This document shows positions 47,408 to 53,114 of a stretch of DNA of 64,000 nt, one piece after another. The translations under genes and the position numbers were made by a program. The first letter of the stretch is position 1, and every line of letters starts with the position of its first letter. Location: positions 1 to 64,000 of the forward strand of contig NZ_KB904813.1 of the NCBI RefSeq assembly GCF_000380185.1, given 5' to 3'. The DNA is from Thiofilum flexile DSM 14609. Lineage in GTDB: Bacteria > Pseudomonadota > Gammaproteobacteria > Thiotrichales > Thiotrichaceae. Under the pieces are notes generated by a model, which saw only the letters and a program-made list of their open reading frames with translations, ran no database searches and was not told the DNA's origin.

Positions 47408-48205
47408 ATGTCCGAAGCCAGCGCTATCCATGAGTTATTAGCACTCATGCAACGTTTACGCGATCCCTTAACAGGTTGTCCGTGGGATAAACGCCAGACT
47501 TGGCAAACCCTATTGCCCTATACCTTGGAAGAGGTTTATGAGGTTGCCGATGCGGTCGATGGTAATGATGCCAAGGCACTTCAAGACGAGTTAGGGGATT
47601 TATTATTCCAGATTGTATTCATGGCACAAATCGCAGAAGAGCAGGGCTTATTTAATTTCAATGATATAGCCCAAGGGATTACCCAGAAAATGCAACGCCG
47701 CCATCCGCATATTTTTGGCGATACCACCTTTGCCAATGAAACCGAACAAAAACAAGCTTGGGATGCTATTAAAGCACAAGAACGCGCGACAAAAGAGCCT
47801 ACAGCACCCTCCCTATTTGCCAATATACCGACTACCTTGCCCACGCTACAGCGTAGTCAAAAACTACAAAAACGCGCGGCACGAGTAGGTTTTGATTGGG
47901 AACATTGGCAACAGGTATTGCCTAAAATTCAAGAGGAATTGGATGAGGTAGTGGAGGCTATAGAGCAGGGAGAACCTTTTAGCCGGATTGAGGAAGAGGT
48001 GGGGGATGTCATTTTTGGTACGACGAATTTAGCGCGGCTATTAGGCGTGAGTGCGGATAATGCCTTGCGCTTAACAAATCGTAAGTTTGAGCAGCGCTTT
48101 TTAAAAGTAGAAGTATTATTGCAAGAGCAGGGTATTAGTTTAGAGCAGGCGACTTTAAAGCAAATGGATGAGGCTTGGGAGCAGGCTAAACAATTTGAAT
48201 CATAA
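47408..48205 (+). CDS. mazG: Nucleoside triphosphate pyrophosphohydrolase MazG
   Basis: 265 residues with two MazG domains. The first has LRDPLTGCPWDKRQTWQTL, YTLEEVYEVADAVD and DELGDLLFQIVFMAQIA; the second has QEELDEVVEAIEQ and EEVGDVIFGTTNLARL. The E-E-x-x-E and E-x-x-D metal ligands are intact. It hydrolyses (d)NTPs to NMP and pyrophosphate, a house-cleaning role. Followed by an 840-base gene-free region. Confidence 0.94.
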   Translation: MSEASAIHELLALMQRLRDPLTGCPWDKRQTWQTLLPYTLEEVYEVADAVDGNDAKALQDELGDLLFQIVFMAQIAEEQGLFNFNDIAQGITQKMQRRHPHIFGDTTFANETEQKQAWDAIKAQERATKEPTAPSLFANIPTTLPTLQRSQKLQKRAARVGFDWEHWQQVLPKIQEELDEVVEAIEQGEPFSRIEEEVGDVIFGTTNLARLLGVSADNALRLTNRKFEQRFLKVEVLLQEQGISLEQATLKQMDEAWEQAKQFES

Positions 48206-48222
48206 ACAGCACAAAAAAAAGA

Positions 48223-48242
48223 AGCTCCAACGAATTGGAGCT
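48223..48242 (-). terminator. Minus-strand terminator in the mazG-ruvA gap
   Basis: AGCTCCAA-CGAA-TTGGAGCT forms an 8-bp stem; on the minus strand it is followed by a short CTTCTTTTTTTTG tract (complement of 48211-48222), while on the plus strand there is no T-run. It therefore ends a minus-strand transcript coming from the gene-free region or from ruvA readthrough, not mazG. Confidence 0.75.
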
Positions 48243-48301
48243 AAGCTTTAAATAACAAGAGACACTCGTTATTCATTTTATTGTTGTTGTTATTAAAAAC
48301 T

Positions 48302-48321
48302 CCCCCCAACTGAATGGGGGG
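48302..48321 (-). terminator. C6/G6 hairpin with minus-strand T-run
   Basis: CCCCCC-AACTGAAT-GGGGGG; read on the minus strand the stem is followed by AGTTTTTAA. It is the second hairpin from the left in the series between mazG and ruvA. Confidence 0.55.
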
Positions 48322-48456
48322 TGATAAATTGAGAAGTACTGTTAAGATTTCACTCGATCATGAAACTCTAGCTAGTAACATCTCATCGGGGCTTATGGTT
48401 TGGGTTCTTATTATTGTTGTTAATTTTTTATTTTAATCACCAACCAGAGCCTTGGA

Positions 48457-48573
48457 TAAAATGCCCCCTGTTTTTGACGCAGGGGGTATCGGAATCGAGG
48501 CGTGGCGGACATTTTATTTTTATTAGAGTTTAGGTCCACTCTCCACCTCTTAGGGCTTGCTGTTGATCGTTAT
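48457..48573 (-). repeat. 117-bp direct repeat, copy 1 (putative ncRNA unit)
   Basis: Identical at all 117 bases to copy 2. It begins with the hairpin CCCCCTG/CAGGGGG (48464-48486) and contains AGAGT/ACTCT and the A-rich tract AATAAAAATAAAA on the minus strand. Read on the minus strand, the hairpin comes last and is followed by CATTTTA, like a weak intrinsic terminator. Both strands carry only very short open frames (about 20-37 codons) without ribosome binding sites. Strand assignment is tentative. Confidence 0.6.
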
Positions 48574-48596
48574 AATTCTTGTTATCAGTTCGTCCT

Positions 48597-48713
48597 TAAA
48601 ATGCCCCCTGTTTTTGACGCAGGGGGTATCGGAATCGAGGCGTGGCGGACATTTTATTTTTATTAGAGTTTAGGTCCACTCTCCACCTCTTAGGGCTTGC
48701 TGTTGATCGTTAT
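48597..48713 (-). repeat. 117-bp direct repeat, copy 2 (putative ncRNA unit)
   Basis: Second identical copy, 140 bases downstream of the first, with a unique 23-base spacer (48574-48596) between them. Complete identity points to recent duplication or active gene conversion; flanks are unrelated, so it is not simply part of a larger duplicated block. Confidence 0.6.
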
Positions 48714-49008
48714 TGCCTTAGCAGGTGCAAGTTTCTTATTATTTTGATACTTAGACTCGCTACCTACTTTGGACTGCTAGTTTGTTATTGTTATTATTCC
48801 CTTAGCCGCTTTCTTATTGTTTTGTTGTTGTTTTTGTTTTATTCCGTCCTTGTTGATTTCTATATTGCAATGGCTGTGCCAACTTATGAAAATATTTATA
48901 AGTTATTGATATTTAAGTGTTATATTAATGTGCTTGAAAATTTCTAGGACGTTGACAGAGCTTGTGCCACTGTCAGGAAGTGACACAATTGACGAAATCG
49001 GCTAAAAG

Positions 49009-49055
49009 AAGTGACAAGTGGGTGACAGCTAACAGGATTGTCAGTTTTGTCACTT
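49009..49055 (-). terminator. Nested inverted repeat across the ruvA stop codon
   Basis: AAGTGACAA (49009-49017) pairs with TTGTCACTT (49047-49055), and inside it TGACA (49023-49027) pairs with TGTCA (49039-49043). The right arm contains the ruvA stop. On the minus strand the hairpin is followed by CTTTTA, so it may end the yebC-ruvCA transcript. More TGACA/TGTCA words lie at 48952-48990. Confidence 0.5.
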
Positions 49056-51011: not shown

Positions 51012-51024
51012 TAAAGGTGTGATT

Positions 51025-51282
51025 ATGCAAGCCTGGGCTGTTCAAGATGCTAAATCGCGTTTTAGTGAGTTTTTGGATGCGTGCCTTGAGCAAGGGCCGC
51101 AAGTGGTGACACGCCGTGGAGTTGAGGAGGCCGTATTAGTTCCTGTAGAGGTCTGGCGCAGGCTTCAGGTGGCTGCAAAGCCGTCCTTAAAAGACTTATT
51201 GTTGTCTGATATCGGGCGGGGTGATTTAGTGCTGCCGAAGCGTGGGCAAGCTCGTAGAAGAAATGTGCAAGAGATTCTATAA
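51025..51282 (+). CDS. Antitoxin, Phd/YefM family
   Basis: 85 residues from ATG 51025, with AAAGG (51013-51017) 7 bases before it. MQAWAVQDAKSRFSEFLDACLEQGPQVVTRRGVEEAVLVPVEVWRRL is the Phd/YefM N-terminal DNA-binding fold, and the C-terminal 30 basic residues would wrap around the toxin. The toxin gene begins three bases after its stop codon. The palindrome at 50985-51011 is its probable binding site. Confidence 0.9.
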   Translation: MQAWAVQDAKSRFSEFLDACLEQGPQVVTRRGVEEAVLVPVEVWRRLQVAAKPSLKDLLLSDIGRGDLVLPKRGQARRRNVQEIL

Positions 51283-51285
51283 GTC

Positions 51286-51696
51286 ATGTATTTATTAGAT
51301 ACGAATGTGGTTTCTGAATTGAGGCGAGCTAAACCGCACGGAGCTGTCCTAGCTTGGTTGCAATCGGTGGATGATAAGGATTTGTATCTCTCATCGGTGA
51401 CATTAGCTGAGATTCAGGCAGGTATAGAGCTGACCCGTGATCAAGATCCACAACGAGCCATTGAATTAGAAGCTTGGTTAGATCAGGTAGCGGATACTTA
51501 TAATATTTTATCTTTGGATGGGCTAGCTTTTAGGGCTTGGGCAAGGCTGATGCATAAAAAGTCTGATACTTTGTATGAAGATGCCATGATTGCCGCCATT
51601 GCCCAAGTGCATAAGCTGATAGTGGTGACTCGCAATGTGGCAGATTTTAGTAATTTCGATATTCAGTTGCTGAATCCGTTTGAATATAAAGGCTAA
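51286..51696 (+). CDS. PIN-domain toxin, VapC/FitB type
   Basis: 136 residues. The PIN nuclease acidic residues are visible in MYLLDTNVVSELRR (Asp5), TLAEIQAGIE (Glu), YEDAMIAAIAQ (Asp) and VTRNVADFSNFD. FitB-like toxins cleave specific tRNAs or other RNAs; the target is unknown. Coupled to the Phd-type antitoxin with a 3-base gap, which is the FitAB arrangement. Confidence 0.92.
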   Translation: MYLLDTNVVSELRRAKPHGAVLAWLQSVDDKDLYLSSVTLAEIQAGIELTRDQDPQRAIELEAWLDQVADTYNILSLDGLAFRAWARLMHKKSDTLYEDAMIAAIAQVHKLIVVTRNVADFSNFDIQLLNPFEYKG

Positions 51697-52406: not shown

Positions 52407-52574
52407 TGCATCCGATCCCTCCTCCCTCCTACCACACTTCGAGGTATCAACATGAATATTCCGAAAGCCATACTGGTCATCGGATTCAGTTATATCCGGT
52501 CCCTCCTCCCCCCTACCACACTTCGAGGTATCAACATGAATATGCCAAAAGCCATACTGGTCATCGGATTCAGT
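52407..52574 (+). repeat. 84-bp tandem duplication over the crystallin gene start
   Basis: 52407-52490 and 52491-52574 are the same sequence with a few substitutions. Each copy contains CTCCTCC, CTACCACACTTCGAGGTATC, a start codon and the first 13 codons. The unit is 28 codons, so the frame stays open through both copies. Confidence 0.9.
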
Positions 52575-53114
52575 CTGTTCAGCGCGTCTGCCGTTCAGGC
52601 AGATTGTAAGGTCTACGAACACATCAATTATGGTGGTGCAGCCCTCACTCTGGTATCAGGGCAGAATATTGCCAACATCGGTTCATCATGGAACGACAGG
52701 ATTTCCTCGATCCAAGTCAATAACAGCTGCCGTTTGATTGCCTACCAGAACATCGACTACAAAGGCGACCGATGGGTTTTCGCTGCCAATAGCAGTTTTA
52801 TCGGCAATATCTGGAATGACCAGATTTCCGCCCTACAATGCCAGTGCTCGGAACCACCGCGCCCGGCCTGCCAGATGTATGAACATGCCAACTTTGGCGG
52901 CGGCGTACTCCCCGTGAGCGGCAACATGCCCTGGGTCGGTAATAGCTGGAATGACAAGGTCTCTGCCGTAGCAGTCCCCTCATCCTGCACGCTGACGATC
53001 TATCAGCACAGCAACTACGGGGGCGACAACCGAACCTTTACACCGGGCAATACCGCCTATGTCGGCGATTTTTGGAACGATCAGGCTTCCTCAGCCAAAT
53101 GTAGCTGCAACTGA
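52536..53114 (+). CDS. Secreted beta/gamma-crystallin-like protein
   Basis: 192 residues from ATG 52536 (GAGG 8 bases before); a second start at 52452 lies in the upstream duplicate and would add 28 residues. A signal peptide (MNMPKAILVIGFSLFSASAVQA) is followed by two double-Greek-key domains joined by a Cys/Pro linker. Each has CxxYEHxNFGG or YQHSNYGG strands, and the calcium motif WND-x-x-S-S/A appears four times (SWNDRISS, IWNDQISA, SWNDKVSA, FWNDQASS). Bacterial crystallins bind Ca2+ on the outside. Richer in G/C than its neighbours, and flanked by gene debris, suggesting acquisition. Confidence 0.88.
   Translation: MNMPKAILVIGFSLFSASAVQADCKVYEHINYGGAALTLVSGQNIANIGSSWNDRISSIQVNNSCRLIAYQNIDYKGDRWVFAANSSFIGNIWNDQISALQCQCSEPPRPACQMYEHANFGGGVLPVSGNMPWVGNSWNDKVSAVAVPSSCTLTIYQHSNYGGDNRTFTPGNTAYVGDFWNDQASSAKCSCN

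Follow-up and report, generated by a model that had tools for sequence, protein, structure and literature searches.

A putative sigma54-dependent Hfq decoy RNA with repeated modules in Thiofilum flexile and other Thiotrichales

The repeat and its predicted transcription unit

The DNA analysed here, a 64,000-nt stretch of a Thiofilum flexile DSM 14609 contig (hereafter the window), carries an 844-bp intergenic region between mazG (plus strand, stop at 48205) and ruvA (minus strand, 3′ end at 49050) that contains no credible gene. Within this region lie two copies of a 117-nt unit, at 48457-48573 and 48597-48713, which are 100% identical, are offset by 140 nt from start to start and are separated by a 23-nt spacer (48574-48596). 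An exact repeat of this kind is not a product of chance. An earlier sequence-only reading had reported two identical units with a 23-bp spacer and a strong hairpin each, located in a gene-free region of about 840 bp, and all of these particulars are borne out, with a GC hairpin near the minus-strand 3′ end of each copy. That reading also proposed looking for copies elsewhere; none are present in the 3.79-Mb genome, where the unit is confined to this single locus. Two plus-strand open reading frames, of 54 and 101 aa, that run through the repeat were rejected as spurious because they overlap the structured module and nothing seen in relatives supports them. Elsewhere in the window, the plus strand encodes a Phd/YefM antitoxin and PIN-domain toxin pair (51019-51696) and a beta/gamma-crystallin-like protein (Pfam Inhibitor_I36 / Crystall; 52452-53114), and the coding region just before the latter shows an apparent short internal repeat.

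The proposal that the locus specifies a minus-strand regulatory RNA is supported. The unit folds with z scores of -1.9 and -2.0 on the minus strand, whereas on the plus strand it folds no better than shuffled sequences (z = -0.5). A sigma54 (-24/-12) promoter that was overlooked in the sequence-only reading, along with the enhancer sites and ARN tracts that also define this locus, is found on the minus strand at 48881-48866 (TGGCACAGCCATTGCA). No other site on the two strands of the window matches TGGCACR-N4-TTGCW without mismatch, and transcription is predicted to start near position 48855. The same element lies upstream of homologous RNAs. The boxes there were selected at two or fewer mismatches, so their base conservation in part reflects how they were chosen, and some of the loci overlap. 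Between the promoter and the upstream activating sequences (UAS) is a minus-strand match to the IHF consensus, TATCAATAACTTA (48899-48911), a consensus that also occurs in 21 of 58 homologous promoters compared with 1.8% of shuffles.

A terminator scan yielded two intrinsic terminators, both on the minus strand. One is the hairpin CCCCCCATTCAGTTGGGGGG followed by AGTTTTT (stem 48321-48302), and the other, at 48215-48242 (stem 48242-48223), is formed by AGCTCCAATTCGTTGGAGCT and TCTTTTTTTT and ends the predicted transcript (fold of 48284-48210, z = -4.4). The earlier claim of four hairpins that terminate best on the minus strand thus stands with regard to the strand and falls with regard to the number. 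Inside the repeats, CATTTTA rather than a U tract comes after the GC hairpins, so that these hairpins probably do not terminate transcription. The full-length RNA would span 48215-48855, or about 640 nt, and comprise a leader, the two identical modules, a degenerate unit and the terminators.

Each 117-bp copy might instead be an independent minus-strand sRNA gene, as was first proposed when the locus was described as a small-RNA pair, and this arrangement would fit both the two identical hairpin units and the existence of single-module short genes in relatives (see below). However, both copies lie behind one sigma54 promoter, neither has a promoter or terminator of its own, and the sigma70-like matches inside the modules are weak (9/12 positions) and about as frequent as in shuffles. 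Moreover, relatives have one to three modules per transcription unit, including cases with two or three behind a single promoter, and tandem independent genes are therefore highly improbable. Because there is a single upstream sigma54 promoter and terminators are found only at the end, the repeats are best read as internal modules, namely two building blocks of one undescribed minus-strand regulatory RNA.

Module structure and distribution

In copy 1 (48597-48713, minus strand), the linker CAGCAAGCCC is followed by a two-part stem, P1/P2, which closes an A-rich (ARN)n loop at 48664-48654, and then by the GC hairpin P3. Copy 2 (48457-48573) is identical and has its ARN loop at 48524-48514. A covariance model of the module matches the two copies at 48704-48591 (105.5 bits) and 48564-48451 (104.5 bits). 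Downstream, at 48302-48404, is a unit that contains AAGCCCCGATGAGA and TCTCA, appears structured (fold z = -3.7) and ends in the first of the two terminators. It has no ARN loop, and its designation as a degenerate third unit was made by eye, as the covariance model gives no match there.

The covariance model retrieved matches in 56 of 63 genomes of the Thiothrix family of sulfur bacteria (the whole sample for the order), representing all eight genera, and in none of 366 other gammaproteobacterial genomes. Named species among the matches are Thiothrix lacustris, T. eikelboomii, T. caldifontis, T. fructosivorans and Ca. T. singaporensis, and there are also Thiotrichaceae MAGs. Pattern matches on contigs outside Thiotrichaceae came from Planctomycetota, Uhrbacteria and Microgenomates, where by our estimate about four are expected by chance. 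In relatives, a long form with one to three modules is found in the ruvA-mazG interval or, close to the end of a contig, next to one of the two genes, and its synteny with both is kept in Thiothrix. Short paralogs at separate loci carry one module in roughly 150-200 nt, and each is equipped with a sigma54 box, a UAS and a terminator of its own. In two loci of T. lacustris (L010 and L059) and one of T. fructosivorans (L104), such short genes are paired at a distance of 1.4-2.9 kb, and at L010 a separate sigma54 promoter and UAS precede each of the two.

The order of elements in modules from relatives is the same as in T. flexile: linker CAGCAAGCCC, stem P1, stem P2, ARN-tract loop and GC hairpin P3. 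Among 19 aligned modules, 96.5% of the cells at paired positions can pair and 10 of the 15 base pairs show compensatory changes, a result that shuffles never reach. In a larger set of 83 distinct modules, 95.8% of cells are paired and compensatory changes occur at all 15 pairs, compared with 29-54% pairing when partners are slid (29-58% for both alignments together). Since the 83-module alignment was built by the covariance model and is fitted to the structure, the 19-module alignment is the cleaner test. The stems are indeed conserved in relatives, a point on which the sequence-only reading had made its proposal depend in part.

These data also bear on whether the repeat is a non-functional or mobile intergenic element of the REP or MITE kind. 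Several loci in Thiothrix genomes hold module copies, as might be expected of such an element. However, nearly every inspected copy is preceded by its own sigma54 promoter and UAS, compensatory changes keep the base pairs intact, and the T. flexile genome has one locus only, all of which leaves this explanation with hardly any credibility. The copies are identical here whereas neighboring modules in relatives are clearly diverged, which hints at duplication or gene conversion of a module in the recent past, with a gain of putative binding sites.

ARN tracts and a predicted role in Hfq titration

The most prominent sequence feature of the predicted RNA is its content of AAnAAnAA motifs. There are 26 in about 640 nt, compared with a mean of 3.75 and a maximum of 14 among 1000 dinucleotide shuffles (0/1000 reach 26); the rest of the minus strand, about 63 kb, has 54. 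These motifs group into eight A-rich (ARN)n tracts that are predicted to be largely single-stranded, with an unpaired probability of 0.89 compared with 0.44 elsewhere in the RNA. Four tracts are located in the A-rich leader (48733-48838), at 48838-48822, 48821-48811, 48798-48782 and 48743-48733, with mean unpaired probabilities of 1.00, 0.98, 0.93 and 0.63, respectively. In addition to the two module loops, one tract (AACAACAATAATAAGAA, 48405-48421) separates the degenerate unit from module 2 and a last one lies at 48278-48294 (AATAACAACAACAATAA), each of these two with a mean unpaired probability of 0.79. The unique spacer between the modules contributes one AAnAAnAA motif (AACAAGAA).

Across the RNA family, AR-N-AR-N-AR is present in the P2 loop of 84 of 86 modules, and 68 of the 86 have four such triplets. 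The N positions of the loop vary between modules (for example AATAACAATAA, AATAAAAATAA and AACAACAATAA) while the A positions hold, as would be expected if the loop were bound by a protein surface that reads A-R-N, for instance the Hfq distal face. Stretches of (ARN)n are known to bind this face, and the 407-nt CrcZ RNA of P. aeruginosa titrates Hfq through six of them (PMC4063720). Hfq was found in 60 of the 63 family genomes, and the T. flexile protein aligns to P. aeruginosa Hfq over 71 residues with the distal-face segment SIYLVNGIKLQG unchanged. In one genus (g7, G038-G046), most genomes encode a diverged paralog (65.8-72.5 bits) in addition to Hfq, which is possibly relevant to Hfq sponging. 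The A-rich single strands might also act as spacers. As judged from sequence, the RNA is probably a CrcZ-like Hfq decoy.

Similarities to the CrcZ, CrcY and CrcX RNAs of Pseudomonas and Azotobacter extend beyond this shared tract type and distal-face segment. Both groups have a sigma54 promoter, NtrC-type activator sites and IHF sites (here predicted), both place several (ARN)n stretches in an RNA of a few hundred nucleotides (six in CrcZ, eight in T. flexile), and both include long and short paralogs within one genome. Nevertheless, the T. flexile RNA differs from CrcZ in its repeated P1/P2/P3 module with linker CAGCAAGCCC, its location between ruvA and mazG rather than downstream of or beside cbrB, and its probable control by PilR. 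The UAS are also distinct: TGTCA-N5-TGACA in T. flexile versus the CbrB subsites TGTTAC/GTAACA (PMC6296734). According to the literature, only Pseudomonas and Azotobacter have the CbrAB system (PMC8871633). Neither CbrB nor CbrAB was recognized among the sigma54 activators identified in the T. flexile genome, and CbrB was on this ground rejected as a candidate activator.

To our knowledge, the CrcZ sponge RNA has been reported only from Pseudomonas and Azotobacter. Consistent with the earlier view that the locus belongs to no described family, a search of the window against Rfam gave no match at gathering thresholds, including that of CrcZ (RF01675, cut-off 95 bits), and permissive thresholds brought only weak CrcZ or Hrs1 matches. 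The best score of the CrcZ model was 19.4 bits, to an A-rich tract of a relative (locus L006). Crc, the partner protein in Pseudomonas, is an ExoIII relative without catalytic residues. The only homolog of ExoIII size in the T. flexile genome retains CGDWNIAH and FSDHAP where Crc has CGSLYVAH and FSQHAP, and its best PDB match is an exodeoxyribonuclease; no catalytically dead Crc was found in the genome. On the basis of the model score below the cut-off, the different neighbors and activator sites, and the catalytic residues kept by the ExoIII homolog, the RNA is like CrcZ in its proposed action yet is not CrcZ.

Sponges of the CsrB/RsmZ type are likewise non-coding decoys of repeated hairpins under two-component control, and the repeated hairpins, intergenic location and likely response-regulator control of the T. 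flexile RNA are consistent with one that titrates CsrA/RsmA. However, those RNAs act through GGA loops, whereas the loops here are ARN, and the lack of GGA enrichment (10 versus 9.8 in shuffles for GGA and 4 versus 3.8 for ANGGA) makes a CsrA sponge very unlikely indeed.

A stronger case can be made for an Hfq-dependent base-pairing sRNA, in which the linker CAGCAAGCCC, present once per module, would serve as a multi-copy seed for mRNA pairing, with GGGCUUGC-type sites near the start codons of shared genes as its partners, and the ARN tracts would only hold Hfq. The linker is the most conserved unpaired stretch of the module, with 75-84 of 86 modules agreeing at each of its eight columns GCAAGCCC, and the short single-module forms, which have a terminator of their own, resemble ordinary sRNAs. 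In folds of the long RNA, however, the linker is only 50-64% unpaired, and ARN tracts fill nearly every module loop. Furthermore, classical Hfq-bound sRNAs engage the proximal face with a U-rich 3′ end and do not have many distal-face ARN tracts, and we consider the pairing-seed explanation unlikely. The linker copies in T. flexile (48693-48702 and 48553-48562, minus strand) belong to an element that hardly varies within the RNA family. It has no role in the sponge model and is possibly a seed for pairing or a further site of protein binding.

Enhancer sites and the candidate activator

Upstream of the promoter, an enhancer region at 48953-49052 (minus strand) contains seven TGTCA/TGACA half-sites. 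Among them is the palindrome TGTCACTTCCTGACA (48985-48971), positioned 104 bp upstream of the sigma54 box. Homologous RNA promoters have about four TGTCA/TGACA sites per 200 bp compared with 0.58 in background from the same loci, and their palindrome is mostly 101-105 bp upstream of the sigma54 box. The exact palindrome occurs at two sites in the T. flexile genome: upstream of the RNA and in the 200-bp gap between pilR and the pilin gene pilA, where it lies 101 bp upstream of the pilA sigma54 box. Among pilR-adjacent pilin promoters from T. flexile and relatives, 9 of 11 carry the palindrome 76-101 bp upstream of sigma54. The RNA promoter therefore has the same UAS as the pilA promoters at about the same distance, although the latter drive a pilin mRNA.

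Six recognizable sigma54-activator genes are present in the genome: NtrC and RtcR (named by curated cut-off), an NtrX-like gene, a PilR-like gene and two without assignment. The PilR-like gene sits between a histidine kinase gene and a type IV pilin gene, and was named by these neighbors and its orthologs because NCBIfam has no PilR model. Since the exact UAS is common only to the RNA and the pilR-adjacent pilA promoter, with similar spacing to sigma54, PilR is a fairly likely activator and the best candidate, given that the RNA is real. A point against it is that one genome (G045) has PilR and no RNA match.

The same Hfq decoy could be governed by another sigma54 activator, such as an unassigned NtrC-type regulator at loci L043 or L044, with PilR using a similar site only at pilA. 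This arrangement is suggested by two MAGs, G041 and G042 (both 96% complete; loci L085, L015 and L177-L182), in which the RNA and an intact UAS are present and no PilR ortholog was detected. The sole gene with a sigma54-activator domain seen in G041 is NtrX-like, while both the L043 and the L044 regulator have an ortholog in G042. However, no TGTCA-N5-TGACA is found in the L043 or L044 loci, including the tupA sigma54 promoter divergent to L043, and in T. flexile the exact palindrome is limited to the two promoters described above. A different activator is thus rather unlikely, and PilR remains our preferred candidate.

Two other observations were made on sigma54 sites. At L175:2724 (plus strand), the site TGGCATAGGGATTGCT lies upstream of tupA, which encodes a tungstate-binding-like protein and is divergent from an unassigned sigma54 activator gene. 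In loci L017, L018 and L021, near-identical sigma54 boxes without TGTCA sites precede apparent rtcB genes, as expected for control by RtcR; these boxes look like rtcB-type gene promoters and were rejected as RNA genes.

The best explanation for the repeat, to which we assign a probability of roughly 0.7, is that its copies are two modules of a sigma54-transcribed Hfq decoy RNA of about 640 nt whose activator is most likely PilR. According to this model, PilR of the PilS-PilR system would bind TGTCA-N5-TGACA about 100 bp upstream, and sigma54 RNA polymerase would transcribe the non-coding RNA from the minus strand. In each module, the loop of the two-part stem P1/P2 would expose a single-stranded (ARN)n tract, with P3 after it, and the module loops and linker ARN tracts together would bind the distal faces of several Hfq hexamers. 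Synthesis of the RNA would then withdraw Hfq from A-rich translation-initiation regions and free those mRNAs, the putative targets, as CrcZ does in Pseudomonas.

We know of only one well-characterized case in which an ARN decoy titrates Hfq, that of CrcZ, which is tied to CbrAB and Crc in Pseudomonadaceae. In the open-access literature, we found nothing on a PilR-controlled Hfq decoy RNA or on small RNAs of Thiothrix. There is perhaps an even chance that Thiotrichales have family-wide modular Hfq sponges under PilS-PilR control that operate without Crc or CbrAB, arose independently of CrcZ, link the type IV pilus and surface sensing to translation control by Hfq, and have a dosage tuned by module duplication. 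Such a second family would have its own architecture, regulator and order-level distribution, and it offers 86 natural module variants together with clean predictions for the Hfq distal face, PilR and sigma54. Within the literature searched, no regulatory RNA family would have been described earlier from filamentous sulfur bacteria of the Thiothrix type. If true, Hfq sponging would have more than one evolutionary origin and could be coupled to other signals, in this case apparently pili.
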